A stretch of DNA of 64,000 bases from Allorhodopirellula heiligendammensis (lineage in GTDB: Bacteria > Planctomycetota > Planctomycetia > Pirellulales > Pirellulaceae), in NCBI RefSeq assembly GCF_007860105.1, contig NZ_SJPU01000001.1:2439700-2503699 (forward strand). Direction: 5' to 3'. The notes under the pieces were generated by a model. It saw only the letters and a program-made list of their open reading frames with translations, searched no databases and was not told the DNA's origin. Made by a program: the position numbers and the translations under genes. Of this stretch, positions 18,365 to 51,610 are shown piece after piece; within the stretch, counting starts at the first letter, position 1, and every line of letters begins with the position of its first letter.

Positions 18365-18661
18365 ATGAGCATTCCACGCAGGTGAGTGCTGCCAGTTTGC
18401 CAACCACCGATCCAGTTGCCCTCGACGGATTTTTCGGCCATTGTCAAATCGAAACGAGAATTGGCGAGGAAAACGCAACCCGTACCCGCAGAGATATCCC
18501 TTAACAAGAAGTGTTTCCGTCGACGACGCAGCTTCATTACAGTCAGCCATCGGCGGATGATGAATGCTCTATCTCTACGTGAAAACAACCATCGCTCATC
18601 GCAAAGTCATGGCCGTCGACTGCGATATTCCGATTGCCTAACACGGATTACAAACGATCAC
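18338..18661. other. Intergenic region, 324 bp
   Basis: Apart from the tandem repeat at its start, nothing recognisable. The reading frame of the next sulfatase is open back to 18386, but the encoded sequence is basic, non-hydrophobic and precedes a good signal peptide, so it is regarded as untranslated. Confidence 0.5.
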
Positions 18662-20122
18662 ATGCACAATATTTTGATTCGAGTTCTACTTCTGCTCTGG
18701 GTTGTTTCAGGCTGCTTTTCGGAGACCGTTGCGGCAGATGAGCGACCCCCTAACTTCGTGGTTATTTTCGTTGATGACTTGGGCTATGGAGATCTCGGCT
18801 GCTTCGGTTCCACCACGATCAAGACGCCTCACATTGACCAGCTGGCTGCCGAAGGGATGCGACTAACGAGTTTTTATGCGCAGACCGTTTGCGGACCTTC
18901 GCGGGCGGCACTGATGACGGGGAGCTATCCGCTGAGGGTCGCGATTCGTCAAAACAAGGTGGAGGTGCACCCGGAATTGCATCCCGATGAAATCACCATC
19001 GCCGAGGTCCTCAAGCCTGCTGGGTACGCATCAGCCGCGTTTGGTAAGTGGGATTTAGCGGGACATCGAGGGGACCGATATGTGCCGACTTTGCTGCCCC
19101 TGTACCAGGGTTTTGACGAGTTCTTTGGTACGTCAACGAGCAACGATACCCGGGTCGACCTGATTCGAGGTAACGAGATGGTTGAAACAAAAGCTGATAT
19201 GCGATTGTTGACCGAACGCTATACCGACGAAGCCATTGATTTTATTCGGCGCAAGGGTGACCAGCCGTTCTTTGTCTATCTTGCTCACTCCATGCCGCAT
19301 GTAACGTTGGCGGCTTCAGATGACTTCAGAGGCAGGTCTGCGGGCGGATTGTACGGGGACGTCGTCGAAGAAATTGACGCCAATGTCGGCCGCATCATGA
19401 AGTCGCTCACAGACATGGGACTTGATGAGCATACATACGTGGTATTCACCAGCGACAATGGGCCATGGTATCTGGGACGCAGCCCCGCGCATCGCAAGCG
19501 GTTTGGTATCGACGCGGCTTCGCATGGCGGATCGGCCGCGCCGCTTCGAGGGGCAAAGACCTCAACCTGGGAAGGCGGCTTGCGAGTCCCATGCATCATT
19601 TGGGCGCCTGGCAAAGTCCCAGCGGGCACAACCTGTGATGAGATCGCGTCGACTATGGACCTGTTGCCGACTTTCGCCGACTTGGCCGCCGTGGATGTGC
19701 CCACTGATCGTGTTATTGATGGGCACGATATTGGTGATCTGATGCACGGCGTTGAAGACGCCACGAGTCCGACGGACGCGTTTTACTTTTACAGGCGTAC
19801 TCGCTTGGAAGCTGTGCGGTCGGGTAAATGGAAACTGCATCGAGCGCTACCGGCAGATAAAACGTGGGCACGGTACAGCAAGGCAGAAGACTCGATCGAC
19901 ATCAACCTTCCAATGTTGTTTGACCTCCAAACTGACGTGGGCGAATCAAATGATGTCGCTGATGAGCACCCAGAAAAGGTGGCAGAATTGTTGCAATTGA
20001 TCGAGCAGGCGCGTATCGATATCGGCGACTACGATCGCGTCGGCGAGAACGCCCGTTTCTTTGATCCGCAACCTCACCGACCTGACATTCGTGTTCCCGT
20101 TTCGTCAAATGCGCAACAATAG
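18662..20122 (+). CDS. Secreted sulfatase (CGPSR type, GKWDL variant)
   Basis: Family S1 sulfatase of 486 residues. Start at 18662 gives a signal peptide MHNILIRVLLLLWVVSG with cleavage near VAADE. VDDLGYGD metal site, formylglycine motif C77-G-P-S-R81 and TSDNGPWYLG are normal. The second signature reads GKWDLAG instead of GKWHLG, replacing the conserved active-site His by Asp. Its C-terminus (ARFFDPQPHRPDIRVPV) aligns with residues around 470-490 of the sulfatase-propeller fusion at 6638, so the two are paralogues, this one without the propeller. A beta-helix gene follows 115 nt downstream. Confidence 0.94.
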   Translation: MHNILIRVLLLLWVVSGCFSETVAADERPPNFVVIFVDDLGYGDLGCFGSTTIKTPHIDQLAAEGMRLTSFYAQTVCGPSRAALMTGSYPLRVAIRQNKVEVHPELHPDEITIAEVLKPAGYASAAFGKWDLAGHRGDRYVPTLLPLYQGFDEFFGTSTSNDTRVDLIRGNEMVETKADMRLLTERYTDEAIDFIRRKGDQPFFVYLAHSMPHVTLAASDDFRGRSAGGLYGDVVEEIDANVGRIMKSLTDMGLDEHTYVVFTSDNGPWYLGRSPAHRKRFGIDAASHGGSAAPLRGAKTSTWEGGLRVPCIIWAPGKVPAGTTCDEIASTMDLLPTFADLAAVDVPTDRVIDGHDIGDLMHGVEDATSPTDAFYFYRRTRLEAVRSGKWKLHRALPADKTWARYSKAEDSIDINLPMLFDLQTDVGESNDVADEHPEKVAELLQLIEQARIDIGDYDRVGENARFFDPQPHRPDIRVPVSSNAQQ

Positions 20123-20237
20123 TGGCGTTCCTTCTGGTCTGTGGGCTGACCGCATGGGCGACGTCTGCGTCCCACGCGGAGAGGTCTGCAAACCTGTCGT
20201 AGCGCGGCCGCACGGAAGTCATCCTCGTGGTATTAAA

Positions 20238-22439
20238 ATGATTCAAGACATGCAACGTAATCTCATTCTCATATTGACCTTCGTGCTCAGCGGCTTCGCG
20301 AGCGCGTCTGCGCAGCCTCCCGTCCATGAGGCAGACTTCTACCTGTCGCCGGATGGTTCCGACACCTGGTCGGGAACCTTGGCGGAGCCAAATGCACAAG
20401 GTACGGATGGTCCTTTCGCCACGCTTCAAAGAGCTCGTGACGCTGTCAGGAAATTGAAGGAAGGCGGACCAACGGACGTTCTCGTGCTGTTTCGAGGAGG
20501 CACGTATACGTTAAGTGAGACTGTTGTTTTTGGTCGCCAGGACTCGGGAACGGCGGCGGCCACGATCACGTATGCTGCCTATCCCGGGGAAACGCCGGTG
20601 CTGTCCTCCGCGAAGCGTATTTCAGGATGGCGGGATGTTGGCAATGATGTCTCTGGGCTGCCTCCAGCGGCACGGGACCACATTTTGGTAGCGGATGTGA
20701 CCGAGAATTTTAAATGCCTTTTCGATCAAGCAGGCCTGTTACCACGCGCACGATCCAAAGGCTTCATTCCGCTGCCGGGAAGTAGCCGAAACAAGTTGCA
20801 CTATCCCGCCGGAACGCTGAGGAATTGGCGAAATGTGGAGGATGTGGAAGTTGTCGTGCGGCCACACCACGCATGGATCGTCAATGTGCTTCCCCTGGAG
20901 TCTGTCGATGAACAACGGCAGATTGCCAGTACATCGGTTGACGCCACCTATGCCATGAACGAGCTTCATTTTCTCAAGGGCACGAACTCGTGCTGGGTAG
21001 AGAATGTTTTGGAGGCACTCGATGAGCCAGGCGAATGGGTACTCGATACCCAGCAAAACAAAGTTTACTTGTGGCCGCGAAATCGAGGAGAGGTGCTGGC
21101 ACCCCAACTCCAGGAGCTCGTCCGTGTCGAGGGTGAGGTCGATGAGTCGGGACCCGTTGACCTGCCTGTTGAGCATCTCTGTTTTCGCGGCCTGAGCTTT
21201 CGCCACGGTGACCGGGATACGTTGACCAACGCCGACGCGGGGTTGCAGCACGATTGGGAAATGCATGACAAGGGCACTGCCTTACTTCGACTGCGTGGAG
21301 CAGAGAACTGCATAATCGAAAAGTGCCATTTTGCTCACAGCGGCAACGGTGCAATCCGCGTGGATCTTCACGGGATGCACAATACGATTTCGGGTAACCA
21401 CATCGAGCAGATCGGCGGATCCGGCATCTTGCTATGTGGGTACGGTCCGGGGACAAAGGATGTTAACCGGCACAATTTGGTCTACAACAATCACGTCCAT
21501 CATACCGGACGGATTTACTCTCACGCACCGGGGATCATGCTGTGGCAGAGTGGAGAGAATCGTGTGGCGAACAATCTGATTCACCATACGCCCTACACGG
21601 CACTGATTCTATCGGGATGCATGACTGACTTTTTCTCGAAATCTGGCCGTGAACTCTCACGGACGATCCGGTGGCATGAGATCGGGTCCAAACCATCGCG
21701 AAATACAAAATTGACGTTTGACGACGTGCGTTCTTTCTTACACACGCACGACAACATGATCGAATACAACGAGATTCATCATGCCATGGAATCGCTGGGT
21801 GACGGCAACGCGATTTACATTCGCGGGGCAGGGGCAGGCAATGTGATTCGCCGCAACTACGTCCATCATCTCGTCGCTCCAATGATCATGCAATGTGCGA
21901 TCCGAACAGACGGCGGTCAGATGGATACTCTGATCGCCGAGAACATTATTTACAAATGCACTTCCCAAGGAATCATGCTGAAACTCAACACACGCGTTGA
22001 GAATAATTTTGTAGTCGATGTCATCGCGCCGCCGCGTGGCTACTATTTGTCGGTTCGCGAGGGTCCACTGACGGGAGCGACCATCAAACGGAACATCTTC
22101 TTGTCGTTCAACCCTGAAAGTGAGTTCATCAATGAACTGGGGCCTGGCAAAGGGAGAGCCAACGAGGATCGGCGAGGACGAGCCTTGGCCCGATCGGCAG
22201 ACGCTGACACCGATTACAATATATATTTTTGTGCCGCGGAGCCTGCGTTGAGTGATGAGATGCTGGCAACGCAACGACGCAGTGGAGTCGACGCTCATAG
22301 CGTGGCAATCGATCCACTATTCGTCGATGCAAGAAAGGGGGATTTTCGGCTCCGTCCAGATTCGCCAGCTCTGCAGATGGGGATCGTTCCTATTGACATT
22401 TCAATGATAGGATTGCGGCCTCCTGTGACAGAGGACTGA
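20238..22439 (+). CDS. Secreted right-handed parallel beta-helix protein (GH141-like)
   Basis: Protein of 733 residues from the ATG at 20238; a second ATG at 20250 is also possible. Signal peptide ends near ASASAQ. The mature N-terminus has FYLSPDGSDTWSG, FATLQRARDAVRKL and FRGGTYTLSETVVF, and the DSGT...ITYAAYPGETPVLS segment seen in GH141-type enzymes and in the protein at 1792. The body is a parallel beta-helix with repeated turns (IEKCHFAHSG, NTISGNHIEQIG, NRVANNLIHH, NVIRRNYVHH). The final SPALQMGIVPIDISMIG is a common end of such proteins. Likely a glycoside hydrolase or polysaccharide lyase acting on the same glycan as the neighbouring sulfatases; specificity is inferred. No PDZ domain here. 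Confidence 0.87.
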   Translation: MIQDMQRNLILILTFVLSGFASASAQPPVHEADFYLSPDGSDTWSGTLAEPNAQGTDGPFATLQRARDAVRKLKEGGPTDVLVLFRGGTYTLSETVVFGRQDSGTAAATITYAAYPGETPVLSSAKRISGWRDVGNDVSGLPPAARDHILVADVTENFKCLFDQAGLLPRARSKGFIPLPGSSRNKLHYPAGTLRNWRNVEDVEVVVRPHHAWIVNVLPLESVDEQRQIASTSVDATYAMNELHFLKGTNSCWVENVLEALDEPGEWVLDTQQNKVYLWPRNRGEVLAPQLQELVRVEGEVDESGPVDLPVEHLCFRGLSFRHGDRDTLTNADAGLQHDWEMHDKGTALLRLRGAENCIIEKCHFAHSGNGAIRVDLHGMHNTISGNHIEQIGGSGILLCGYGPGTKDVNRHNLVYNNHVHHTGRIYSHAPGIMLWQSGENRVANNLIHHTPYTALILSGCMTDFFSKSGRELSRTIRWHEIGSKPSRNTKLTFDDVRSFLHTHDNMIEYNEIHHAMESLGDGNAIYIRGAGAGNVIRRNYVHHLVAPMIMQCAIRTDGGQMDTLIAENIIYKCTSQGIMLKLNTRVENNFVVDVIAPPRGYYLSVREGPLTGATIKRNIFLSFNPESEFINELGPGKGRANEDRRGRALARSADADTDYNIYFCAAEPALSDEMLATQRRSGVDAHSVAIDPLFVDARKGDFRLRPDSPALQMGIVPIDISMIGLRPPVTED

Positions 22440-22613: not shown

Positions 22614-24410
22614 ATGACACCAATTATCCGCACCTACTTACTTCTTCTGGGGGTCTTGATTTCCGCATCGTTGCAGGCAGCGCCCACCAATGTTGTGTTC
22701 GTCATGTCGGATGACCAAGGATATGGGGATCTTGGTTGCACAGGAAATCCTATTATTAAGACGCCGAATATTGACCAACTGGCGTCGGTCAGTTCTGGCT
22801 TGAGCGATTATCATGTCGCGCCGACGTGTTCGCCCACAAGGTGCTCGCTCCTGACCGGACACTGGACGAACCGCACGGGGGTTTGGCACACGATCATGGG
22901 CCGCTCAATGTTGCGTGAGAATGAAATCACCATTGGCCAAATGTTTGCAGACGCGGGCTATGAAACCGGAATGTTTGGCAAATGGCACCTGGGTGATAAC
23001 TATCCCTACCGTGCCGAGGACCGTGGCTTTACGGAAGTCTTTCGCCATGGCGGTGGCGGTGTCGGGCAGACTCCAGACCTGTGGGATAACGCCTACTTCG
23101 ATGGCTCGTATTTCCACAATGGAAAAGTTGAGCCGGCAAAGGGGTTTTGTACGGATGTGTTCTTTTCCCGTGCCAACGAGTTCATCAGCAAATGTGCGAG
23201 GGAACAGAAACCTTTTTTAGCCTACATCGCGACCAACGCTCCTCACGGACCGCTGCACTGTCCACCCGAATACTCGGCAATGTACGAAGGTCAATCTGCA
23301 AACATCGCGTCATTTTATGGAATGATTACCAATGTCGATGACAACGTTGGTAAGACTCGCCGCCTGATCGAAGATTTGGGAATCGCTGACAACACGATCT
23401 TCGTATTCACCACCGACAACGGAACTGCCAGCGGTGCCAAAGTTTTTAATGCAGGGATGAGAGGGGCCAAGGGTAGTCCCTATGATGGTGGTCACCGGGT
23501 CCCGTTCTTTTTGCATTGGCCAGCCGGTGGTATTACAAAGCAGCATGACGTCGATGTGCTCACTCATGCCGTTGACATTGTCCCAACTTTGCTTGAGATG
23601 ACTGGTGTGAAGAAGCCCGCGGGCGTGAAGTTTGATGGTGTCTCGATCGCTGGGCTCCTGGATCCTGCCAAGGATGTCGACTTTCCTGAGCGATTCGTCA
23701 TCAGTGATTCGCAGCGCGTCCGCGATCCGATCAAATGGCGTAGTTCATCCGTCATGTCTCAGAAGTATCGACTGATCAACGGCAAGGAACTCTATGATAT
23801 CGCCGTCGATCCCGGACAGCAGAACGATGTCGCGAAGCAGCAGCCAGCAGTCGTTGCGGAGATGCGTCAGTTTTATGAAGATTGGTGGGCGGAGTTGAAG
23901 CCAACCTTTGCCCAGACGACAGAGATCTATCTGGGGCATCCCGAGCATCGTGTCGTAAGTCTCACCGCTCATGATTGGATCCAAGATGTCTATCCCCCCT
24001 GGCATCAGGGGTCGATTCGGCAGGCAGATCGTAAGCATCCGAAGTCCGAGAAACTTGCTCATCAGGGTCACTGGGCCGTCAAGGTGATCCGAGATGGCAA
24101 GTATCAGGTATCGCTCCGCCGCTGGCCGGTTGAGTCCGGCGCGGCGATCAACGACGCCCTCCCCGCTGGAGCCAACGTCCCGGGGGCAGCGCAAGCTTTT
24201 CGTACTGCGGAGGGAAATGCCATTGGCGCTACCCACGCGGTGCTCCGCATCGACGAAGAGGATGTTGACCGTAAATCCATTGAGCACGACGCGGCCGAGG
24301 TGAGCTTTGTCGTCGACCTAAAACAGGGCTCGTATCGACTGGCGCCATGGTTTGAGATCGAGGAAGGTGAATTGGGGGCCTATTACGTGGTCGTCACTCA
24401 GCTTGATTGA
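22614..24410 (+). CDS. Secreted arylsulfatase-like sulfatase (CSPTR type)
   Basis: Family S1 sulfatase of 598 residues, preceded by an aggaa Shine-Dalgarno-like sequence. Signal peptide about 1-22 (SLQAAP). MSDDQGYGD metal site, formylglycine motif C72-S-P-T-R76, GKWHLG, TTDNGT and the loop MRGAKGSPYDGGHRVPFF are present. The catalytic domain closes with INGKELYDIAVDPGQQNDV, and a C-terminal domain of about 150 residues follows (GHWAVKVIRDGKYQVSLRRW, a beta-rich module common in arylsulfatases). It shares loop and tail motifs with the truncated sulfatase at the start of the window. Acts on extracytoplasmic sulfate esters; specificity unknown. Confidence 0.95.
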   Translation: MTPIIRTYLLLLGVLISASLQAAPTNVVFVMSDDQGYGDLGCTGNPIIKTPNIDQLASVSSGLSDYHVAPTCSPTRCSLLTGHWTNRTGVWHTIMGRSMLRENEITIGQMFADAGYETGMFGKWHLGDNYPYRAEDRGFTEVFRHGGGGVGQTPDLWDNAYFDGSYFHNGKVEPAKGFCTDVFFSRANEFISKCAREQKPFLAYIATNAPHGPLHCPPEYSAMYEGQSANIASFYGMITNVDDNVGKTRRLIEDLGIADNTIFVFTTDNGTASGAKVFNAGMRGAKGSPYDGGHRVPFFLHWPAGGITKQHDVDVLTHAVDIVPTLLEMTGVKKPAGVKFDGVSIAGLLDPAKDVDFPERFVISDSQRVRDPIKWRSSSVMSQKYRLINGKELYDIAVDPGQQNDVAKQQPAVVAEMRQFYEDWWAELKPTFAQTTEIYLGHPEHRVVSLTAHDWIQDVYPPWHQGSIRQADRKHPKSEKLAHQGHWAVKVIRDGKYQVSLRRWPVESGAAINDALPAGANVPGAAQAFRTAEGNAIGATHAVLRIDEEDVDRKSIEHDAAEVSFVVDLKQGSYRLAPWFEIEEGELGAYYVVVTQLD

Positions 24411-24542: not shown

Positions 24543-25775
24543 ATGAACAGGATCTGGTGGGCAGTCGTTGTCTTCCTATGCTCGGCTTGTTGGTCGATCC
24601 AAGGGATCGCTCAAACGTTGCAGGTTGCTGATGGAAACGCACTAGTTGGAAATCGAAAGCTGGCCGACGCTGTCGGTGGCAGTGGAGTGGCGCCTCGTCC
24701 TCAGTTCAGCTGGGACCATGTGCCGCTGTACATGCATATGCGGAAGGCAACGGACTTTACGTCCGAGGAATTGGAGTACTTGGCAAACTTTCCGCTGATC
24801 ACGCTCGAGAAAACCACAGGAAGCCGCACGCATGGCTCATCAGAGGACGGCTCTCTGGCGGCGGCGAAGGCCATCAAAGCCGTCAATCCAGATGCCTGCG
24901 TTCTGTATTATCGAAACGTCCTCTGCAACTATTCCGGTTACAAGGTGAATCGCGAGTTAGCACAAATTCCTGACGCGTTCCTGCAAGGCAGTGACGGCAA
25001 CAAACGTCTTCATCGCGGGGTAAGGGAAGTGTACGACTTGTCCAATCCCCAGATTCGCCAATGGTGGGTTGATCATTGTGTTCAGATGGTTGGTCATGAC
25101 GAGATCGATGGCATTTTCCTGGATGGCAACATAAAGGCTTTGGAACCAGAGTTTTTACGCAAGGAAATCGGGGCGGAACGCAAACAAGAGGTCGCGACTG
25201 GGTACGGGCTGATGATGCAAACGCTTCGCCGACAGATGCCAGCGAACAAAATGTTGGTGGCGAATATTATCCGCGCACGTTTACCTGATTCTGGATTGAG
25301 CTATCTGCAGTATTTCGATGGCTCGTACCTCGAAGGAATTGAGAGCCAAGCAAATGGTCTGACCCGCGTAGAGTACTTGGCAAAAGGTATTGATGCCGTG
25401 CAGCAGGCTGCGCGCCAAGAGAAAATAATCTGCATGTCGATAGGGCTCGGCCGTGAGGCGCTGACTGGGCTTAAGATCGATGACAGTCGAAAAAGGCTTG
25501 GTCGGAACGCCGATATTCAGCCTCGCTTGGAGTACTGTTTGGCGTTGTTTTTGATTTGTGCAGAGAAGTATAGCTATTTCCTGCCACATGACGGATACGA
25601 TGTGAACAATGGACGTAGTTCAGTCTGGCTCCAGCGGTTTCCTGAATATGACAAGCGTCTCGGGCCCCCTCAAGGACCGGCAATGCGAGATGGACACGTC
25701 TATAGCCGCGACTTTGAATCAGCGAGTGTCGTTCTCGATATCGAAAACGAAGTGGGCAAAATTACCTGGAAGTGA
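24543..25775 (+). CDS. Putative secreted TIM-barrel glycosidase (GHL15-like)
   Basis: Protein of 410 residues with a signal peptide (about 1-23, IQGIAQ). After a short linker it contains FSWDHVPLYMHMRKATDFTSEELEYLANFPLITLEKTTGS, typical of putative glycoside hydrolases with a (beta/alpha)8 fold in which a sequence of hydrophobic strands ends in acidic residues: VLYYRNV, DGIFLDGNI, FDGSYLEGI, ICMSIG. The acidic residues in DGIFLDG and DGSYLE are candidate active-site residues. Resemblance to the 'hypothetical glycoside hydrolase 15' class is from memory of motif style and should be tested. The next gene encodes a paralogue 164 nt downstream. Activity unproven. Confidence 0.72.
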   Translation: MNRIWWAVVVFLCSACWSIQGIAQTLQVADGNALVGNRKLADAVGGSGVAPRPQFSWDHVPLYMHMRKATDFTSEELEYLANFPLITLEKTTGSRTHGSSEDGSLAAAKAIKAVNPDACVLYYRNVLCNYSGYKVNRELAQIPDAFLQGSDGNKRLHRGVREVYDLSNPQIRQWWVDHCVQMVGHDEIDGIFLDGNIKALEPEFLRKEIGAERKQEVATGYGLMMQTLRRQMPANKMLVANIIRARLPDSGLSYLQYFDGSYLEGIESQANGLTRVEYLAKGIDAVQQAARQEKIICMSIGLGREALTGLKIDDSRKRLGRNADIQPRLEYCLALFLICAEKYSYFLPHDGYDVNNGRSSVWLQRFPEYDKRLGPPQGPAMRDGHVYSRDFESASVVLDIENEVGKITWK

Positions 25776-25939
25776 ATGTGTTCAGTTCGGTAGACGAAAC
25801 TACCGGCAAGTTCGCGTCTTTCACTCATTCCTCCGGCCGGTCATTTCAATTCCCAACCGCGAAAGTGGACCTCTCCTCAGTCTGATAGCCCTGCTTCGAG
25901 TGAGGCTTGATCGAAAGTTACTACCTGGATTCAACGGAA

Positions 25940-27181
25940 ATGACAACGAACCTATTCGCAGCATGCATGCTGCTCGCAATCGCCACTCTGTTCTCCAGTC
26001 AGCCCTCGTTGGTACATGGACAGGAGCATGAAGAAACGGTGCCCCTGCTCGTTAGCGACGGTAGTCGCTTCCAGGTGCAGGACAGTTTTCCGAAATTTAG
26101 CTGGGACGTGACGCCCCAATATTTCATGTTTGGCGATACTCAAAGGGTGTTGAGCCCAGAGGAAGTAAGGTCTATCGCCTCACGAACAGATTTTCTCTGC
26201 ATCGAAAAGTCGCATGGATCGAAGGCCCTTGGTGCCGCTGAATTGGGCGCAAAGCATGAGGTCGAGGCGTTCAAGCGAATCAAACCCGAAATGAAAGTTT
26301 TGTTCTATTTCAATTCAGCATATGCTTGGCCTTTCACCTCTTACAATAAGGTTTTCACGCCGGATCAGATTAACGCGCGACCCGATTTGAAGAGCTTGTT
26401 GCTTATCGATCCGGCAACCGGCGAGCTTGCTCAGCGCCGAAAGGTGTTCTTCTTTGATGTGTTGAACCCACAGATGCGGAAATGGTGGGTCGACACCGTT
26501 GCCAAAGGAGTTGCCGACTCCGGTAGCGATGGTGCTTTCATCGATCAGATGCATGGTTTTTTCTGGATGCGAAAGGACAGGGCAGCGGAGGTGCGAGAAG
26601 CGATGGGTGAGATGATGTCGTCGCTGAAAGAGAGGCTAGGTCCCGACAAAATCCTGTTGGGAAATAATGTGCACCAGGATCTCGCGGAGCATGTTTTTCC
26701 GGCCGTCGATGCGAGTATGTTCGAGCACTACAACGCCGCACTTCTCAGTAAGGAAAGCTTGCTCCATGATTGGCAGGATATGTTGCGGCTCGCCCAGGCC
26801 GGCAAGATGTCGGTTTTTCGGATCGGGGTTGAGTCCGAGGCCTTACCTGAGCATGTGCAGGGACGTCGTCGTGGTCATGACACGGCTGAATTGGCGAAGG
26901 CCCGATTGGAATACTATCTCGCTTGTTACTTGATTGGTGCTCAGCCGTACTCGTTTTTTCAGTACGGATGGGGGTGGACTCTTTCATCGGGCTCCCTTGA
27001 GGATTACCCTGAGTTGCATCGGCCGCTCGGTGCGCCCCAGGAGGCTTTTCGGCGAACCACACCGGACGGCTGGGAGTTCACTCGCGAGTTTGAGCATGCC
27101 AGTGTGTGGGTGAATACGGAAAGTAAGCAGGCCAGAATTACATGGCGTTTGCCGGACGGTCTCAGCGATGCTCAGGAGTAG
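25940..27181 (+). CDS. Putative secreted TIM-barrel glycosidase (GHL15-like), paralogue of upstream gene
   Basis: Protein of 413 residues from the ATG at 25940; the frame is open upstream to a TTG at 25907 but the ATG gives a normal signal peptide ending near VHGQE. It parallels the 24543 protein region by region: FPKFSWDVTPQYFMFGD, FLCIEKSHGSKALG, VLFYFNSAYAW, FFDVLNPQMRKWWVD, DGAFIDQMHGFF, MFEHYNAALLS and LEYYLACYLIGAQPYSFFQYGWG. Candidate catalytic acids lie in DGAFIDQ and FEHYN. The duplication suggests two related specificities or one backbone cut at different positions. A DUF6250 gene follows closely, implying an operon. Function inferred from fold-like motifs only. Confidence 0.72.
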   Translation: MTTNLFAACMLLAIATLFSSQPSLVHGQEHEETVPLLVSDGSRFQVQDSFPKFSWDVTPQYFMFGDTQRVLSPEEVRSIASRTDFLCIEKSHGSKALGAAELGAKHEVEAFKRIKPEMKVLFYFNSAYAWPFTSYNKVFTPDQINARPDLKSLLLIDPATGELAQRRKVFFFDVLNPQMRKWWVDTVAKGVADSGSDGAFIDQMHGFFWMRKDRAAEVREAMGEMMSSLKERLGPDKILLGNNVHQDLAEHVFPAVDASMFEHYNAALLSKESLLHDWQDMLRLAQAGKMSVFRIGVESEALPEHVQGRRRGHDTAELAKARLEYYLACYLIGAQPYSFFQYGWGWTLSSGSLEDYPELHRPLGAPQEAFRRTTPDGWEFTREFEHASVWVNTESKQARITWRLPDGLSDAQE

Positions 27182-29864: not shown

Positions 29865-31361
29865 ATGAACCGAGGCATTATTGGGCTATTGATCGCAACC
29901 ATGACGCTTGCAACTTCCACGTGCGCAGACGTCCCGACTCGTCCGAACATCATCTATCTTATGGCGGATGATCAGAATGTCGGGTCTGTTGGCTGTTACG
30001 GAAACACAGAGGTGAGCACGCCCAATATGGACCAGCTCGCGCGCGACGGCATGGTGTTTGATCGTCATTACAACACCACGTCAATCTGTATGGCGAGTCG
30101 GTCCAACGTGTTCACCGGAATGTATGAATACAAAACGGGGACCAACTTCGGTCACGGTAACATGAGACCTGACGTGTGGGCGAAGTCATACCCCGTTCTG
30201 CTGCGGGAATCGGGATACTTGACCGCGTTTGCAGGAAAGTTCGGTATCGAGGTGGACAACAAGGGATTATGCGAACAGGACTTTGATATGTGGGGCGGCG
30301 GGCCCGGGCAGACGGATTATCGGACCGCCCGGAATCCCTCGATGGCCAAGTACGCAAAGGAATATCCCCATTCAACGCTTTCGTATGCTGCTTTCGGCCA
30401 GGATGTCATTCGCGAAGCGGTTAAGCAGAGCAAGCCTTTCTGCCTTTCGATCAGTTTCAAAGCCCCGCACCGACCAGTGACACCGGATCCAAAATTCGAC
30501 CATGTTTACGCGGGCAAGAGTTTCACCAAGCCGGCCAATTTTGGGCGTGAGGCGGGCGCCCATCTGGCACCGCAGAGCAAGCAAGGTCGCCAGTATCCTC
30601 GCTTTATCGAATGGGAATACGACACCGACTATGATGGTGTGATGGCCAAGTATTACCAACTCATCTATGCGATCGATGTAGCATTGGGAACGATTCGAGC
30701 CGAGTTGGAAAGTCAAGGAGTCGCGGATAATACTGTGATTATCTATACCAGTGACAATGGATATATCTGCGGATCGCACGGATATGGATCCAAAGTGCTG
30801 CCGATGGAAGAGTCTTCCCGGGCGCCGCTAATGATCTATGATCCTCGTCATTCATCGGCCGGCAAGCAGTTTCGCAGTAATGCGCTGACTGGAAACATTG
30901 ATTTTGCGCCCACCATTCTGGAACTTGCTGGTGTGCCCGTTCCCGAGAACGTCGACGGCGTCAGCCTGCTACCGCTGTTGGACGATCCCACCAGCGATGT
31001 GCGTGAGCAGATGGCGTTCATCAACGTTTTTCCGCCGGCACCGACAACGAGCCTAACCTGTCTGACTAAGGATTGGAAATACACTTACTGGTGGTATGGT
31101 GATGCGGAGATGAAACCCACCGAGGAGCTATTTCATTTGGCTCAGGACCCGTTTGAAATGTCAAATCTCGCTGGGGATCCGGAAGCGGCAGCTTCGCTTG
31201 AGTTGATGCGGAAGAAGTACGATGACGAATTGGAGCGTTGGAAGCAGCAAGCGGTTCCTTACAACGACTATGTGCGGTACGGAACCCTGTTCGATCGCAC
31301 GATTCCCGTGGCAGACAAACAGTTCAAGCGAGTTCGGGCAAACGGGAAAGAGAACGAGTGA
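29865..31361 (+). CDS. Secreted sulfatase (CMASR type)
   Basis: Family S1 sulfatase of 498 residues; start at 29865 gives the signal peptide [20 protein letters not shown] (Cys20 before ADVPT might also be a lipobox-like site, not convincing). [11 protein letters not shown] metal site and formylglycine motif C75-M-A-S-R79, the C-x-A-x-R form also accepted by maturases. The second signature is AGKFGIEV rather than GKWHLG, as in a distinct sulfatase subfamily. [16 protein letters not shown] and the SSRAPLMI loop are present. The stop codon lies 2 nt before the start of the L-fuconate dehydratase gene, the strongest local link between desulfation and fucose catabolism. Confidence 0.94.
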
Positions 31362-31363
31362 GC

Positions 31364-32695
31364 ATGGAATCCATTCGCATCCTGTCCGCGAAGGTTACTG
31401 ACGTCCGCGTCCCTACGTCCGACGCACTGCTCGGTTCGGATCCTTTTCACAAAAAGCCGGACTACTCCTCGGCCGTATTGCAGCTCGAAACAGACTCGGG
31501 ACTTTGTGGGATCTCTGTCGTCTTTACCGTAGGGGCAGGAACAGATTGGATTTGTCACGGGATTCGCGACTTATGCCAGCTCGTGATCGGATCCAGCCTC
31601 GACGATTTCTCTGCCTCACCCATAACGCTCTATCGCAGGCTGATCGACCATCATCAACTGCGTTGGCTGCACGATGGCGTCTTTCGGATGGCTGCAGGGG
31701 CTGTCCTGAATGCGATGTGGGATCTCTGGGCGAAAGCCCTCGGCAAACCATTGTGGAAACTTCTCGTCGATCTTGAGCCGGAGTTTGTCGCCGACTGTAT
31801 TGACTGGAGAAATATCAGCGACGCTTTGACTCGCGAGCAAGCGATCGCTCTGCTGCAAAGCCGGCGAGCTGATGTTGAGCGACGTGAGCAAGAATTGACC
31901 CGTCAGGGCCCCGAGGCATATTGCACCGCAGGGTGGCTGGGCCTCAGCGATGACGAGATTCTTATGACCATACGCAAATTGCAGGGGTGTGGTTTTGGTT
32001 CGTTTAAGCTGAAGGTCGGGCTCGACTCAGACCTGGACGTGCAGCGGATTCGATTCATGCGAGATGCCATTGGCCCCGACTGCAATCTGATGGTGGACGC
32101 CAATCAGTTCTGGGGGATCGATGAAGCAAAACGCCATATTGAGCAGTACCGCCCATTCAGTTTGAAATGGATCGAAGAGCCAATCGCCCGCGACGATGTT
32201 CTGGGGTATGTCGAGCTTGCGCAAACATTCTCCAATGCAGATTTCGGCTTTGCATGCGGTGAACATGCAGCATCGCCGGTGATCTTCAAACAATTATTGA
32301 AAAGCCGAGCGATTCAGTACTGCCAGATTGATGCGGTGCGGGTGGGTGGTGTCAACGATGTCATGGCGATCGTGTTGATGGCGGCCAAGTTTGGCGTGCC
32401 GGTTTGCCCCCATGGAGGCGGGATCGCACTCTGTAACATGATCCAGCACTACGGCATGTGGGATCAAATTGCTGTGTCCGGACACTCCGATACCCAGCTC
32501 ATCGAGTACATCGATTTCCTCCAAGAAGCCCTCACGCATCCAGTCGCGGTCCGAGACGGCTGCTACGTCGCACCGACGGCGATGGGATGGGGATTGGAAT
32601 TTGACGCTCAATTCATTGATGACCACCGATTCCCAGATGGTGCCATGTGGAAGCCACGCAGTTCAGCATCCAAGGGCGTTATGTTCGAAGCGTAA
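31364..32695 (+). CDS. L-fuconate dehydratase, enolase superfamily
   Basis: Cytoplasmic protein of 443 residues, no signal peptide. It dehydrates L-fuconate to 2-keto-3-deoxy-L-fuconate in the oxidative L-fucose pathway. Family marks are the N-terminal capping domain, the sequence YCTAGWLGLSDDEI, the base motif FKLKVG (Lys215 and Lys217), metal ligands Asp245 (MVDANQ), Glu271 (WIEEP) and Glu300 (CGEH), and His350 in PVCPHGGGIALC. The MAAKFGVPVCPH and VDAVRVGGVN-like (QIDAVRVGGVND) stretches are close to those of fuconate dehydratase and of the ENOSF1 group. A related acid-sugar dehydratase is the alternative. The start is fixed by the ATG 2 nt after the upstream sulfatase stop. It defines the probable sugar of this locus. 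Confidence 0.88.
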   Translation: MESIRILSAKVTDVRVPTSDALLGSDPFHKKPDYSSAVLQLETDSGLCGISVVFTVGAGTDWICHGIRDLCQLVIGSSLDDFSASPITLYRRLIDHHQLRWLHDGVFRMAAGAVLNAMWDLWAKALGKPLWKLLVDLEPEFVADCIDWRNISDALTREQAIALLQSRRADVERREQELTRQGPEAYCTAGWLGLSDDEILMTIRKLQGCGFGSFKLKVGLDSDLDVQRIRFMRDAIGPDCNLMVDANQFWGIDEAKRHIEQYRPFSLKWIEEPIARDDVLGYVELAQTFSNADFGFACGEHAASPVIFKQLLKSRAIQYCQIDAVRVGGVNDVMAIVLMAAKFGVPVCPHGGGIALCNMIQHYGMWDQIAVSGHSDTQLIEYIDFLQEALTHPVAVRDGCYVAPTAMGWGLEFDAQFIDDHRFPDGAMWKPRSSASKGVMFEA

Positions 32696-32815
32696 GATGG
32701 AATCAAAGTGACGACTCACCAATCCCGGACTCGTGTATTCGGCCGTCTGGTTGGCGGAGGTCTGGATAACCAGCAAGATACGGAATATTCACTCGAACCC
32801 CAGACGATCTCAATC

Positions 32816-33838
32816 ATGATAATTATTCGACCGTTGGCAGTACATTCCGCGATGATCGCCAGGCCGTTCCTTGCATACTGCCTTGTCTCCCTATTGATTT
32901 CCCCTTTCGCATCAGCTCAGGACCGCACAGGCAGTCGTCGTGTTGGAGGAACTGCGGCCAGCGTCCAATACGCCCCCGCAGTGCCTGTGCCGACACTGAT
33001 GAACGTTCGTTACGGCGAGCACCCACGCAACGTTCTAGATTTTTGGAAAGCTGAGGCTCAGACGCCAACGCCTCTGGTCTTTGTAATTCACGGTGGCGGT
33101 TGGGTAGGGGGAAGCAAAGAACGTGTCGACCGCTTTGCAGATGTCGACGCCCTCCTGAAAGCGGGCATCTCAGTTGCGGCCATCAACTACCGTTACACCT
33201 CGCAGGCGGACGTCTCGGATAACGATCCACCTGTGAAGACGCCGCTCCATGACGCCGCCCGCGCATTGCAGTTTGTTCGCAGCAAATCGGGTGAATGGAA
33301 CCTGGACAAGGAGCGTGTTGGCGCTGCGGGTGGATCCGCTGGCGCCTGCTCCAGTTTGTGGCTTGCCTTTCATGATGATTTGGCCGATGCGGATAGCGAT
33401 GATCCTATCTCGCAGGAATCGACTCGGCTCTGGTGCGCGGCCGTTACCGGAGCGCAAACGACGCTTGATCCTCAACAGATGAAAACCTGGACGCCGAATA
33501 GCAAATACGGCGGCCATGCATTCGGTAAGAAGTCGTTCGCAGAATTTCTGGATCAGCGCGAGCACATTTTGCCCTGGCTTGCCGAGTACTCGCCTTATGC
33601 GCTCGTGTCGCAGGACGATCCGCCCGTTTACCTGATCTACTCCGCACCCCCAGCAATTGGCCAGAATCAGAAGGATCCGACACATACCTCCAATTTTGGT
33701 GTGAAGTTACAGGAGCATTGCCAGGACGTGGGAACCGACTGCGAACTCGTCTACCCAGGTGCTCCGAGCGCCCGTCACAAGACACCCACTGAGTTTTTGA
33801 TCTCGACGCTATCCGCGCCATCAGAGTCCCGTCAATGA
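32816..33838 (+). CDS. Secreted alpha/beta hydrolase (esterase/lipase-like)
   Basis: About 340 residues from the ATG at 32816; an ATG at 32852 also gives a good signal peptide (IARPFLAYCLVSLLISPFASAQ). Oxyanion-hole motif VIHGGGW, nucleophile elbow AGGSAGACSS with G-x-S-x-G, and a YRYTSQ segment characterise HSL/BD-FAE type esterases. The catalytic Asp and His are probably in PPVYLIYSAPP... and RHKTPTEF, but the acid residue is unclear: the usual HG(x)5D is not plain. Directly downstream of the fuconate dehydratase; it could be a glycan deacetylase or a lactonase-like esterase. The substrate is inference. 222 nt separate it from the next sulfatase. Confidence 0.85.
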   Translation: MIIIRPLAVHSAMIARPFLAYCLVSLLISPFASAQDRTGSRRVGGTAASVQYAPAVPVPTLMNVRYGEHPRNVLDFWKAEAQTPTPLVFVIHGGGWVGGSKERVDRFADVDALLKAGISVAAINYRYTSQADVSDNDPPVKTPLHDAARALQFVRSKSGEWNLDKERVGAAGGSAGACSSLWLAFHDDLADADSDDPISQESTRLWCAAVTGAQTTLDPQQMKTWTPNSKYGGHAFGKKSFAEFLDQREHILPWLAEYSPYALVSQDDPPVYLIYSAPPAIGQNQKDPTHTSNFGVKLQEHCQDVGTDCELVYPGAPSARHKTPTEFLISTLSAPSESRQ

Positions 33839-34060: not shown

Positions 34061-35536
34061 ATGAACATGAACCATTGTATTTCGAGTTTGTTTCTATCTC
34101 TTGTAATCCTGACAGCACTGCCTGTCGGCGGTCATGCTGCTGATCCAGCTGACTCATCAAAACAATTAAACTTCGTCGTATTTGTGGTGGACGACCTCGG
34201 CTACATGGACATTGGAGCCAATAATTCGGAGTGTTTCTACGAAACGCCCAATATCGACCGCTTGGCTGACTCGGCAATGAGGTTCACCGATGGCTACGCC
34301 GCCAATCCGGTGTGCTCGCCGACTCGTTATAGTTTGATGACCGGGAAGTACCCGACTCGTGTTCGGGCGACCAATTTTTTCTCAGGGAAGCGGAGTGGGC
34401 GGTTCAATCCTGCACCACTCAACGAGCACATGCCGCTTGAGGACGTCACGGTCGCCGAGATGCTCAAGAGCAAGGGATACGCAACTTTCTTTGCCGGAAA
34501 GTGGCACCTGGGGGAGAGCGAAGAATACTACCCTCAGAAACAAGGTTTCGACGTCAATATCGGCGGCCATCGCATTGGTGGACCGTACACAGGAAACAAG
34601 TACTTCGCCCCCTTTAAGAATCCAGAAATGGAGGTTGAAAGCCCCGCGGGCGATCATCTACCTGACCGCCTCGCTCGCGACACAGTTCGCTTTATTGAGG
34701 AGAATAAGGACAGACCGTTTCTCGCTTATCTCTCGTTCTATTCGGTACACACGCCCCTGATGGGGCGACCCGACCTAGTGAAAAAGTATAAGCAGAAGGC
34801 GGCCTCTATCGACGGTGCTGAGTTTGCCGAGGAAGAACAAGTGTTGGGAAATCAGGTGCGGAAAGTCCGCGTGTTGCAAAAACACGCTGTGTACGCCGCG
34901 ATGGTGGAGGCCATGGACGAAGCCGTGGGCAAGGTGCTCCGAGAGCTCGACGACTCAGGCGTTGCCGACGACACAGTGGTGATATTCACATCGGATAACG
35001 GCGGTCTATCGACATCGGAGGGACTACCCACCAGCAACCTGCCGCTGCGAGGAGGTAAAGGTTGGGTGTACGAAGGGGGCATTCGTGAACCATGGATCAT
35101 TCGATATCCGGGGGTCACGCCCGCTGGTTCAGAGTCGTCCGAGCCAATCTGCTCGATTGATTTGTTCCCGACGATCGCGGCCGCAGCAGGGGTAGAGGTG
35201 GGCCATGATGTTGACGGAGTGAATATTCGGGCAGCCCTGGAAGGAAAATCACTCGACCGGGAATCTCTGTATTGGCACTACCCGCATTACAGCAACCAGG
35301 GCGGCATTCCCGGCGGCGCGATTCGCGAGGGCGACTTTAAATTGGTCGAACGGTACGAGGACGGGCGCGTGCATCTATACAACCTCAAGGATGATATTGG
35401 CGAACAGCATGACCTGGCCGATACAATGCCTGAGCAAGTGGACCAAATGCGCCGTCGTCTGCATGCGTGGTATCAAACCGTGGATGCACAATTCTTGCAA
35501 CCGAAAGATGGTCTGGTTCCCTGGAAACCTGAATAG
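34061..35536 (+). CDS. Secreted sulfatase (CSPTR type)
   Basis: Family S1 sulfatase of 491 residues, starting at ATG 34061 (a second ATG lies 6 nt on). Signal peptide about 1-27 (GHAADP). VDDLGYMDIGANN metal site, formylglycine motif C85-S-P-T-R89, GKWHLGES, TSDNGGLSTSEG and GGKGWVYEGGIREPW loop are present. The long internal insertion around AEFAEEEQVLGNQVRKVRVLQ and the ending YEDGRVHLYNLKDDIGEQHDL are typical of a common marine sulfatase subfamily. Followed 50 nt downstream by the esterase-sulfatase fusion gene, so probably co-expressed. Specific sulfate position unknown. Confidence 0.95.
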   Translation: MNMNHCISSLFLSLVILTALPVGGHAADPADSSKQLNFVVFVVDDLGYMDIGANNSECFYETPNIDRLADSAMRFTDGYAANPVCSPTRYSLMTGKYPTRVRATNFFSGKRSGRFNPAPLNEHMPLEDVTVAEMLKSKGYATFFAGKWHLGESEEYYPQKQGFDVNIGGHRIGGPYTGNKYFAPFKNPEMEVESPAGDHLPDRLARDTVRFIEENKDRPFLAYLSFYSVHTPLMGRPDLVKKYKQKAASIDGAEFAEEEQVLGNQVRKVRVLQKHAVYAAMVEAMDEAVGKVLRELDDSGVADDTVVIFTSDNGGLSTSEGLPTSNLPLRGGKGWVYEGGIREPWIIRYPGVTPAGSESSEPICSIDLFPTIAAAAGVEVGHDVDGVNIRAALEGKSLDRESLYWHYPHYSNQGGIPGGAIREGDFKLVERYEDGRVHLYNLKDDIGEQHDLADTMPEQVDQMRRRLHAWYQTVDAQFLQPKDGLVPWKPE

Positions 35537-35586: not shown

Positions 35587-37920
35587 ATGACTTTCCCGAG
35601 ACTGTTGCTTTTTCTAGTGGTGATGCTTGGCAGCAAACATCTGCATGCAGATGTCTATGACGTGTACCTGCTCGCTGGACAATCCAATATGGATGGCCGG
35701 GGTGACGCCGACGAACTCTCCGAAACACAGCGACGTTGCCCTGCCGACGCGATGATTTTCTACCGAAATCCTCCGCACGCCAGCGACGGTTGGAGTCCGC
35801 TAGCGACGGGATTCAGCGTGCCGCCGAAATTCAAGGGCGCGTTGCCGTCGACCAAATTTGGCCCCGAGATTGGGTTTGCCGCAACGGTTGCTCGATCGAC
35901 TACTGCGAATAAACTCGGCTTGATCAAGGGGGCCAAAGGGGGCACCAGTCTGCGTGTGGACTGGAATCCTGGGCGTGCGGGAGAACCGGATTCTCAAGGT
36001 CCCTGCTATCGCGATTTTATCGAAACGATTGAGCTGGCAACGTCAGAGCTGACCTACAAGGGGCATTCGTATGTGATTCGCGGATTACTATGGCATCAAG
36101 GCGAATCGGACAGTCGGTCGAGCGAGCAACGATACCGAATGCGGTTGACCGAATTGATCAACCGTATTCGACAAGACGTCGGGAGCCCTGACTTGCCCGT
36201 GGTTATCGGTGAAGTGTTTGACAATGGACGACGTGACACTGTCCGTGCTGCTCAGCGAGGCGTCGGCTCGTCGATGGCCAACGTAGAGGTTGCACCTGCA
36301 CGCGGGTTGACGACCTGGGATGAGGGCACGCACCTCGATGCTCAGAGCCAGTGGCAGCTCGGCCAACGTTTCGCCACTGCGTTATCGAAACGCTCCAATT
36401 CGAAACGCCTGAAACCTGCAAACGGTCCGCACGAGAAACCCAACGTACTTTTCATTTCGGTCGACGATTTGAACGATTGGGAAGGCAGCCTAGGAGGCAA
36501 CCATCAGGCTCAGACACCGCATATGGACAAGCTGTTCCATGAGAGTGTCCTGTTTACGAATGCTCATTGCTCGCAGGCTGTGTGCACGGCGTCGCGAAAC
36601 TCACTGTTGAGTGGCATCCATCCCAGTCGCTCGGGCTGGTATGCATCGACGGCGGCCATGCGGAAATCGTATGACGAGGTGATGGGTGATCACAAGATGC
36701 TGCCGCAGTATTTCCGCGATCACGGATACGAAACATTGGCCTGCGGCAAAGTTTTCCACCAGGGTGTTTCTGATTATAAGGATCGTACAAAGGATTTTTG
36801 GGATGAAACAGCTCCCACGTACAAGATTCCCAAAGAATTGCTCGCCCGTGGTGATGGTTACGGAGGGAAAATGTTTTACCCGTTTCCAAAACGCGGCAGC
36901 CAAATCGTTGATCGATATGGTGAGGAGTACGCCGATGGACACTCGCTGTGTTACGGGGCATTGGATCGCGATGATATTCCCGGCGGCATGATGTTCGACG
37001 AGTTGACTGCCGACTGGGCGTCCGAACAACTTCGTCGTGACCACACGAAACCGTTCTTTCTGGCCGTGGGCTTTGTCAGGCCGCATGTTCCCTACACGGC
37101 ACCACGAGAGTTTTTTGATCTCTACAATCTAGACGACATCCAGTTGCCTGACGTGCCCGATGACGAAATGGCAGATATTCCCATGATGGGAAAATCAATT
37201 GCATACGGTACGCTTCCCGCCGGTGACCATTATGCCGTCGTGAATCTGAGCGATAGTTACTGGCGTGAGATGATCTTTGGCTATCTGGCATGCGTTTCAT
37301 TTGCCGATGCTCAGGTTGGCAAAGTTCTCGATGCGCTCGCCAACAGCCAACACGCCGAGAACACGATTGTTGTCTTGTGGTCTGACCATGGCCAGCACTT
37401 GGGCGAGAAGAAGCACTGGCGGAAACAGTCGCTGTGGGAGGAATCAACCCGTGTTCCTCTGTGCATTCGGTTACCGGGCCAGGCAACCGGTAGCAGTTGC
37501 TCCGAAGCGGTCAGTCTGTTGGATGTCTACCCGACGCTGATCGATCTATGTGGCCTCCCCGCCACCGCCGAGCTCGATGGTGCGAGTCTCCTTCCACAGA
37601 TCCAGGATCCCAAGACGCCGCGTGACACTCCCGTACTTTCAACTTGGTACTATCGGAACCACTCGGTTCGTAGCAATGATTGGAGATACATACGATATCG
37701 TGATGGGACCGAAGAACTTTATGATCACCGGAGCGATCCTGGAGAGCATACAAATTTGGCGGGTCTGTCGGAGTTCGCCGATGTCGTGGCTGAGCATCGA
37801 CGATGGTTGCCCAAGATCGATGCCCTCCCCGCGGGAGACGATCGCTGGGAGGGTGATAAGCTGGATCGACGCGTGCGGGAGTGGACGGAAAATGAGAGTG
37901 TGCCAGCTTGGCTGAAATAA
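35587..37920 (+). CDS. Bifunctional SGNH acetylesterase (SASA-like) fused to iduronate-sulfatase-type sulfatase
   Basis: Protein of 777 residues with a signal peptide (about 1-22). Residues 23-265 form a carbohydrate acetylesterase of the sialate O-acetylesterase/SASA SGNH type: nucleophile block G31-Q-S-N-M35 (Ser33), W169-H-Q-G-E-S-D175, and the C-terminal block DEGTHLDAQS with His249. Residues about 284-777 form a complete sulfatase of the iduronate-2-sulfatase-like group: ISVDDLNDW, formylglycine motif C333-T-A-S-R337, ACGKVFHQG, FLAVGFVRPHVPY, LWSDHGQHLGEKKHW and ESTRVPL. Both halves appear intact, so the enzyme could remove acetyl and sulfate groups from the same glycan outside the cell. 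The substrate is inferred from context. Confidence 0.94.
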   Translation: MTFPRLLLFLVVMLGSKHLHADVYDVYLLAGQSNMDGRGDADELSETQRRCPADAMIFYRNPPHASDGWSPLATGFSVPPKFKGALPSTKFGPEIGFAATVARSTTANKLGLIKGAKGGTSLRVDWNPGRAGEPDSQGPCYRDFIETIELATSELTYKGHSYVIRGLLWHQGESDSRSSEQRYRMRLTELINRIRQDVGSPDLPVVIGEVFDNGRRDTVRAAQRGVGSSMANVEVAPARGLTTWDEGTHLDAQSQWQLGQRFATALSKRSNSKRLKPANGPHEKPNVLFISVDDLNDWEGSLGGNHQAQTPHMDKLFHESVLFTNAHCSQAVCTASRNSLLSGIHPSRSGWYASTAAMRKSYDEVMGDHKMLPQYFRDHGYETLACGKVFHQGVSDYKDRTKDFWDETAPTYKIPKELLARGDGYGGKMFYPFPKRGSQIVDRYGEEYADGHSLCYGALDRDDIPGGMMFDELTADWASEQLRRDHTKPFFLAVGFVRPHVPYTAPREFFDLYNLDDIQLPDVPDDEMADIPMMGKSIAYGTLPAGDHYAVVNLSDSYWREMIFGYLACVSFADAQVGKVLDALANSQHAENTIVVLWSDHGQHLGEKKHWRKQSLWEESTRVPLCIRLPGQATGSSCSEAVSLLDVYPTLIDLCGLPATAELDGASLLPQIQDPKTPRDTPVLSTWYYRNHSVRSNDWRYIRYRDGTEELYDHRSDPGEHTNLAGLSEFADVVAEHRRWLPKIDALPAGDDRWEGDKLDRRVREWTENESVPAWLK

Positions 37921-51325: not shown

Positions 51326-51610
51326 AGAACAACTATCTTTCAGGATGTCACGACAGTGGGGAATTGCATTGCGACAGCGAATGCAGCAACTCAGAGCGGC
51401 ATTCATGAGAACGTCGGTACCGTCTTCGCGGGGGTGGCTGCATCGCATGGACACATCAGTAGGATGTTGGATGGTCTCGCTGTCGTCCAATACGAGCGGC
51501 ATTGTATAGCACGCTCCGTCGGGGCGCTTGATCCAAAATGTCCCCCATCAGTGAAAACGCGCACAGTGTGTCACCCAGCTCTCGTATCTGCTCGGGCGCC
51601 CTCGACATCA

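Follow-up and report, generated by a model that had tools for sequence, protein, structure and literature searches.

A FucD-like dehydratase gene behind an S1_25-type sulfatase gene in a likely fucan island of Allorhodopirellula heiligendammensis

The carbon stored in fucoidan is broken down slowly, and planctomycetes and Verrucomicrobiota may carry out the end-steps of fucose breakdown either through an isomerase and a microcompartment or through oxidation. This report concerns a sulfatase gene and a gene for a protein resembling L-fuconate dehydratase (FucD) that lie side by side in Allorhodopirellula heiligendammensis, a marine planctomycete of the Pirellulaceae. The window, i.e., the whole stretch of DNA analyzed, comprises 64,000 nucleotides (C1:2439700-2503699) of a 7.18-Mb genome whose contig C1 measures 2.75 Mb. 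The original prediction, made from the letters of the window, held that this gene pair links desulfation directly to the oxidation of L-fucose.

The sulfatase-dehydratase gene pair

The S1 sulfatase gene (498 aa, + strand, 29865-31361) runs from an ATG at 29865 to a TGA at 31359-31361; two bases, GC, separate it from the ATG at 31364 of the dehydratase gene (443 aa, + strand, 31364-32695), which ends with a TAA at 32693-32695. These coordinates are as first predicted, and the ATG at 31364 agrees with the N-termini of homologues. Both genes belong to a run of 21 consecutive + strand genes (5180-41670) whose intergenic gaps are, in order, 51, 170, 30, 94, -1, 403, 48, -62, 174, 132, 131, 3, -4, 119, 2, 12, 222, 50, 271, and -4 nt, the value of -62 depending on the start codon chosen. 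Since 6 of these 20 gaps measure 3 nt or less, we rejected the 2-nt gap as a sign of special coupling; it is ordinary for the run and not beyond chance.

The dehydratase belongs to the enolase superfamily, with Pfam matches to MR_MLE_C (PF13378, 168 bits) and MR_MLE_N (36 bits). Its top phmmer matches in the PDB were human ENOSF1 (4a35, E 1.4e-111) and FucD of Xanthomonas campestris (1yey, E 4e-108; also 2hxt), which it resembles in length, fold family, and all catalytic and metal columns. Nine FucD columns that we take to be catalytic or substrate-binding, namely K218, K220, D248, N250, E274, E301, D324, H351, and E382 (X. campestris numbering, anchored on K220), were all kept, bearing out an earlier statement that the catalytic set is full. 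Because the set is complete, the protein would be expected to act as a Mg-dependent dehydratase in which the KxK lysine and a His-Asp dyad turn an acid sugar, most likely L-fuconate, into a 2-keto-3-deoxy acid. No signal peptide was evident by eye, and the enzyme is presumably cytosolic. An NCBIfam scan matched 15 models, none of them over its cut-off and none named FucD.

In a quick tree of 71 rows, built without bootstrap, the window dehydratase did not group with the characterised FucD proteins; it fell among 58 sequences of a sister clade, apart from 12 canonical FucD-type sequences, of which only Xanthomonas FucD and ENOSF1 are characterised. The branch between the two groups measures 2.16 changes per column, with a Shimodaira-Hasegawa approximate likelihood ratio test (SH-aLRT) value of 100, and support on the side of the canonical 12 is 79; the tool warned that long branches meet near this split, at L159 and L024, and L024, on a very long branch, is not trustworthy. 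The tree was computed without the partial sequences L125, L150, and L155 and without L088, L110, and L114, and it used 8 of 29 Poribacteria. Clade members come from Planctomycetota, Verrucomicrobiota, Poribacteria, Latescibacterota, Gemmatimonadota, Myxococcota, and Pseudomonadota, and no characterised one was found among them. Likewise, a description of the clade was not found in literature on fuconate dehydratase, on fucoidan in Planctomycetota, or on fucose microcompartments of Poribacteria, a sample made up of partial texts that mostly left out subscription papers.

We then compared alignment columns between 77 of the 80 clade sequences whose loci were named (L125, L150, and L155 being partial) and the 12 canonical sequences. 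Twelve columns (58, 97, 103, 104, 110, 191, 278, 279, 305, 306, 386, and 388) were changed clade-wide: all 77 sequences showed R58A, S97H, deletion of 103-104, H110R, deletion of S191, S278A, P279R, N305S, R306P, H386F, and H388Q, the only exceptions on the canonical side being single occurrences of K at 58 and G at 97. Unlike FucD and ENOSF1, the window protein thus lacks 103-104 and 191 and has R58, H110, N305, R306, H386, and H388 replaced. The catalytic columns are common to both groups, save for P at 351 in L114, where an in-frame stop follows just after. It is conceivable, though on balance unlikely, that the clade has shifted to a different acid sugar sharing this C2-C4 pattern, for example D-arabinonate, L-galactonate, or a fuconate with substituents that derives from the sulfated glycan. 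The uniformity of the twelve changes and the long branch would fit such a shift, as would the side activity of FucD on L-galactonate, D-arabinonate, and others, reported in PMC13406643. However, D24, T190, K220, N250, H351, and E382 are unchanged, with the same exception in L114, and a dehydrogenase resembling L-fucose dehydrogenase is encoded downstream in 8 of the 80 named loci. We consider the window protein most likely to be a divergent L-fuconate dehydratase serving a side route of fucose catabolism. The identity first proposed agrees with the predicted chemistry, with the nearest relatives (FucD and ENOSF1), and with the Verrucomicrobiota operons described below, but the protein is placed in a separate clade in which no characterised member was found.

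The sulfatase matched Pfam PF00884 (Sulfatase, 158 bits) and PF16347 (SGSH_C), and its closest PDB entry by phmmer was 6hr5, presumably the S1_25 part of an ulvan enzyme, which carries KYG where the window sulfatase carries KFG. Its N-terminus looks like a signal peptide by eye, its formylglycine (FGly) motif is CMASR (residues 75-79), and GKFG at residue 124 replaces the usual GKWH, leaving HisA missing. Among the ten sulfatase open reading frames (ORFs) of the window, GKFG was unique to this one, the remainder having GKWH (six), GKWD (one), or no such match (one), or being a partial ORF (one); in the 15 orthologues fetched (60-75% identity), CMASR and GKFG were kept without exception. The protein thereby bears the mark of S1_25, HisA replaced by K-F/Y-G. 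According to its authors, the fucan exo-3-O-sulfatase SWF4 of Wenyingzhuangia fucanilytica was the first characterised S1_25 member; that paper describes the loss of HisA (KFG) as characteristic of its S1_25 homologues and flags the mechanism of the HisA-less enzyme as needing more study (PMC6315715). The window sulfatase resembles SWF4 in having KFG in place of the HisA motif, a CXXXR-type FGly motif, a single domain of ~500 aa, and a signal sequence; unlike SWF4, which the same paper places near GH107 fucoidanases, it sits near GH141-like proteins. These likenesses suggest an exported enzyme of the S1_25 type whose most likely activity, outside the cytoplasm, is that of an exo-3-O-sulfatase on sulfated fucose residues. 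An ulvan or rhamnan substrate, as the 6hr5 match alone might imply, was rejected given the presence of FucI, FucP, and GH29; Pfam scans of 37 chosen window ORFs returned no GH78 and no ulvan lyase.

The gene island and its likely substrate

Directly upstream of the window (L178) lie genes for the L-fucose:H+ symporter FucP (TIGR00885, 492 bits, cut-off 280), the L-fucose isomerase FucI (NF008220, 1020 vs. a cut-off of 775), a class II aldolase-like protein (22 models matched, none over its cut-off), a protein matching a GH29 fucosidase (PDB 9rzx, E 8e-228), an alpha/beta hydrolase recognized by eye, and a sulfatase. Sulfatases are concentrated in this region: with short fragments omitted from the count, 11 of the 50 sulfatase places on C1 fall within 60 kb here, compared with 1.1 expected, making it the densest 60 kb of the contig. 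Within the window, GH141-like proteins are encoded on the + strand at 20061-22439 (a parallel beta-helix protein; PDB 9rx2, E 2e-286; 5mqp, E 1e-14) and at 1750-4719 (a beta-helix protein with a PDZ domain; 9rx2, E 8.5e-31; 5mqp, E 1.4e-17), Pfam GH141_M being below its cut-off in both cases. Entry 5mqp is BT_1002, which we take to be the founder of GH141, and 9rx2 is another beta-helix protein of solved structure. A homologue of the protein at 20061-22439 (66-69% identity) adjoins the sulfatase orthologue, or lies no more than 1.3 kb from it, in 7 of 15 loci. Endo-fucanases occur among GH141 members, as stated in PMC12786026. The region thus combines GH29, GH141-like proteins (by PDB match, below the Pfam cut-off), and 11 sulfatases, as would a fucan island. 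On the grounds of FucP, FucI, GH29, the sulfatase density, the GH141-like proteins, and the microcompartment genes considered below, the substrate of the island is likely a fucose-containing sulfated polysaccharide. The fucoidan or other sulfated fucan named in the original prediction is therefore supported; most of the weight comes from FucP, FucI, and GH29, whose genes lie beyond the window, and the rest from the GH141-like proteins and the S1_25 mark.

Distribution of the gene pair

Conservation of the pair across genomes was looked for and rejected. The clade dehydratase occurs in 7 of 97 other relatives (73-81% identity), and in none of these seven did the fetched flanks of the dehydratase contain the sulfatase, whose closest homologue (51-72% identity) is on a different contig in five of these genomes and at distances of 395 and 539 kb in the other two. 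More broadly, the sulfatase was absent from all 83 other dehydratase loci (the 80 named plus 3 from further relatives), where the best match of at least 200 aa was only 27% identical, and the dehydratase was absent from all 15 fetched loci of the sulfatase orthologue (one of which, L076, spans only 3.4 kb). Any tie of desulfation to fucose oxidation by way of this gene pair rests on one genome only, contrary to the direct link first proposed. That link is also opposed by an apparent difference in location, the sulfatase looking exported and the dehydratase having no evident signal peptide (both by eye).

These data raise the question of whether a mobile, sporadic dehydratase gene simply landed behind an ancestral sulfatase gene, with no functional tie between them; we regard such a chance neighbourhood as unlikely. 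In its favor, an orthologue of the sulfatase (67-74% identity) is present in 12 of 12 other genomes of the same genus, so that, with the window's own genome counted, all 13 have the sulfatase whereas 4 have the clade dehydratase; the two are together in none of the 83 other loci; and 18% of contig positions lie within 8 kb of a sulfatase. However, in L084 and L090, both from Verrucomicrobiales, a different sulfatase gene ends 26 and 21 nt, respectively, upstream of the clade dehydratase; its product is a homologue (55-56% identity) of the S1 sulfatase encoded at 18386-20122 on the + strand of the window. Because L084 and L090 are close kin, they and the window amount to two independent direct adjacencies, which is suggestive only, as are ten further loci with some sulfatase within 8 kb. 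Overall, some sulfatase was found within 8 kb of the dehydratase in 12 of 50 planctomycete and verrucomicrobial loci and in 0 of 33 from Poribacteria and others, a count that detects only sulfatases akin to nine of the window and in which the L091 match is a propeller rather than a sulfatase. The baseline in the window genome, besides the 18% of contig positions, was 7 of 20 control 20-kb stretches. We claim no enrichment of sulfatases near the dehydratase, the loci not being independent.

In the tree, the dehydratases of L084, L090, and L094 (all Verrucomicrobiales) nest among planctomycete ones, and their genes lie among sulfatase genes. This pattern suggests lateral transfer of pieces of the island, which is likely for L084 and L090.

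Gene neighborhoods of the clade were examined in 80 named loci, from 105 relatives of the dehydratase, with ORF sets called mechanically; four of these loci are shorter than 6 kb and several have short flanks, where absence of a neighbor is less telling. Four types of context were apparent. In the first, the dehydratase gene accompanies a short-chain dehydrogenase/reductase (SDR) gene and an FAA hydrolase gene, usually in the order SDR, FAA, dehydratase; of the 80 loci, 19 contain the SDR family and 17 the FAA family. In eight loci, L119 included, the dehydratase gene is followed downstream by one for an SDR with at least 66% identity to the second SDR of L119, and the L119 protein, the only one of the eight scanned, passes the NCBIfam L-fucose dehydrogenase equivalog (353 vs. 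a cut-off of 300). The L116 cluster adds a RhaM-type mutarotase domain and a dehydrogenase dependent on flavin mononucleotide. For the FAA protein of L101 the closest match was to 2,4-diketo-3-deoxyrhamnonate hydrolases, below the model cut-off, and on this gene alone rhamnose is a possible substrate. Judged by these neighbors, the clade stands in a predicted oxidative fucose operon in Verrucomicrobiota and some planctomycetes. The second context is that of Poribacteria (L127-L154 and L158), where the dehydratase has one family beside it in 26 of the 80 loci and a second in 24; annotation covered only their L132 members, an HpcH/HpaI aldolase for the first and a cobalamin adenosyltransferase for the second. 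The cluster resembles a route that runs through a 2-keto-3-deoxy-acid aldolase and finishes with B12-linked use of propanediol, and the clade dehydratase probably works with a retro-aldolase there. The third context consists of sulfatase islands, that of the window among them, and the fourth of unrelated neighbors, e.g., a DEAD helicase, type II secretion, and arabinose genes.

A bolder possibility is that the clade forms an isofunctional family of its own, separate from FucD, whose particular substrate derives from sulfated marine glycans. It would then take part in three designs of pathway across phyla: with a diketo-hydrolase in Verrucomicrobiota; with a retro-aldolase in Poribacteria, where lactaldehyde would pass to a B12-linked propanediol step; and, in sulfatase-rich planctomycetes, as a hybrid with the FucI-microcompartment route. 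We hold this proposal to be doubtful.

Fucose catabolism in the window genome

To place the dehydratase in a pathway, both fucose routes were sought in the window genome; in genome searches of large families, part of the first-look candidates were scored. The isomerase route is represented by FucI and FucP. Candidate kinases for L-fuculose are four FGGY kinases and a weak fifth. Two bacterial microcompartment (BMC) shell genes (PF00936) lie at C3:334 kb, and the genes adjoining them read, by eye from their translations, as PduL, acetate kinase, aldehyde dehydrogenase, and class II aldolase. With FucI, FucP, a class II aldolase-like gene, and BMC shell genes, the genome is like the fucose/rhamnose microcompartment route of Planctomycetes-Verrucomicrobia described in PMC8857213, a route in which the dehydratase has no place.

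The oxidative route, as described in PMC13406643, is by contrast incomplete by known parts. The original prediction had suggested looking elsewhere in the genome for an L-fucose dehydrogenase; against NF052481 the best protein scored 147.8 bits vs. the cut-off of 300, with 23 of 40 first-look candidates scored. By the same model, 13 of 98 genomes have a dehydrogenase over the cut-off, but none of the 8 clade genomes do, the window's own included. No dedicated diketo-acid hydrolase (FAA, 2,4-diketo-3-deoxyfuconate) was found, the only match being 46% identical and belonging to a type that 97 of the 98 genomes have; among the eight clade genomes, an FAA match above 50% was seen only in G008, the source of the query. 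The Poribacterial aldolase had no match in the window genome and 25-36% matches in 5 of the other 7 clade genomes. The SDR encoded within the window at 47006-47785 (+ strand) was rejected as a counterpart of the operon dehydrogenases. Its identity to them is 28-35%, and it is not their orthologue; its relatives at 56-81% occur in many genomes that lack the clade.

That a complete oxidative route (dehydrogenase, lactonase, dehydratase, dehydrogenase, and hydrolase) is coupled to desulfation through the operon is therefore quite improbable. The FucD catalytic set, the oxidative operons of the clade elsewhere, and five SDRs of the window genome at 32-36% identity to the operon SDR are consistent with it, but the dehydrogenase and hydrolase results just given are not, nor is the presence of the isomerase route and the BMC locus; the same results oppose a direct link between desulfation and fucose oxidation.

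We lean instead, with modest confidence, towards a local juxtaposition of the two genes in a fucan island, with the S1_25 sulfatase outside the cell and the dehydratase on an oxidative side branch beside the main route through FucI and the BMC. The exported sulfatase would remove 3-O-sulfate from fucose residues outside the cytoplasm, GH29 and other exported enzymes would free L-fucose, and FucP would import it. Genes for these latter steps and for the main route are present, and FucI, a kinase, and a class II aldolase would presumably convert most of the L-fucose to lactaldehyde, to be handled in the microcompartment. The side branch may serve fucose oxidised by a non-orthologous dehydrogenase, and if the dehydratase and sulfatase genes share a transcript, they would be co-expressed without any metabolic channelling. 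Several points weigh against this interpretation. Neither the L-fucose dehydrogenase, the dedicated hydrolase, nor the Poribacterial aldolase was found in the searches above, so no L-fuconate-making enzyme was identified in the window genome. Since twelve columns that are fixed or nearly fixed in canonical FucD are changed throughout the clade, its specificity may have moved. Many neighbors of the clade are unrelated to sugars, and in the seven relatives with the clade, no other flank gene family is common to more than two. The clade offers a way to test for an oxidative branch in organisms whose fucose breakdown is ascribed to the microcompartment.

Other genes of the window

The gene following the dehydratase in the run (32708-33838, + strand) encodes a BD-FAE type alpha/beta-hydrolase resembling carbohydrate esterases (PF20434, 82.8 bits, over the cut-off). 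Further along the + strand are an S1 sulfatase at 34061-35536 (PF00884, 192 bits) and a SASA-type carbohydrate esterase fused to an S1 sulfatase at 35587-37920 (PF03629 and PF00884); another S1 sulfatase is encoded at 22614-24410 on the + strand (PF00884, 182 bits). An enolase-superfamily gene at 50222-51502 (- strand) passes the cis-3-hydroxy-L-proline dehydratase equivalog (605.9 vs. 500) and has no evident tie to the fucose genes.

A sulfatase fused to a beta-propeller is encoded at 6638-9028, and its propeller half is 66% identical to the product of a stand-alone gene in the Planctomycetes bacterium SV_7m_r (L091, 6759-7697), apparently exported, which lies just upstream of a clade dehydratase gene. 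The propeller was considered as the missing lactonase and rejected, the stand-alone homologue looking exported and no lactonase appearing among the PDB matches. A GH43-like protein is present at L083. Two adjacent proteins of the hypothetical glycoside hydrolase family GHL15 (PF14885) are encoded at 24543-25775 and 25907-27181, in the same + strand run, and a sulfatase at 55492-58473 is fused to a YHYH domain.

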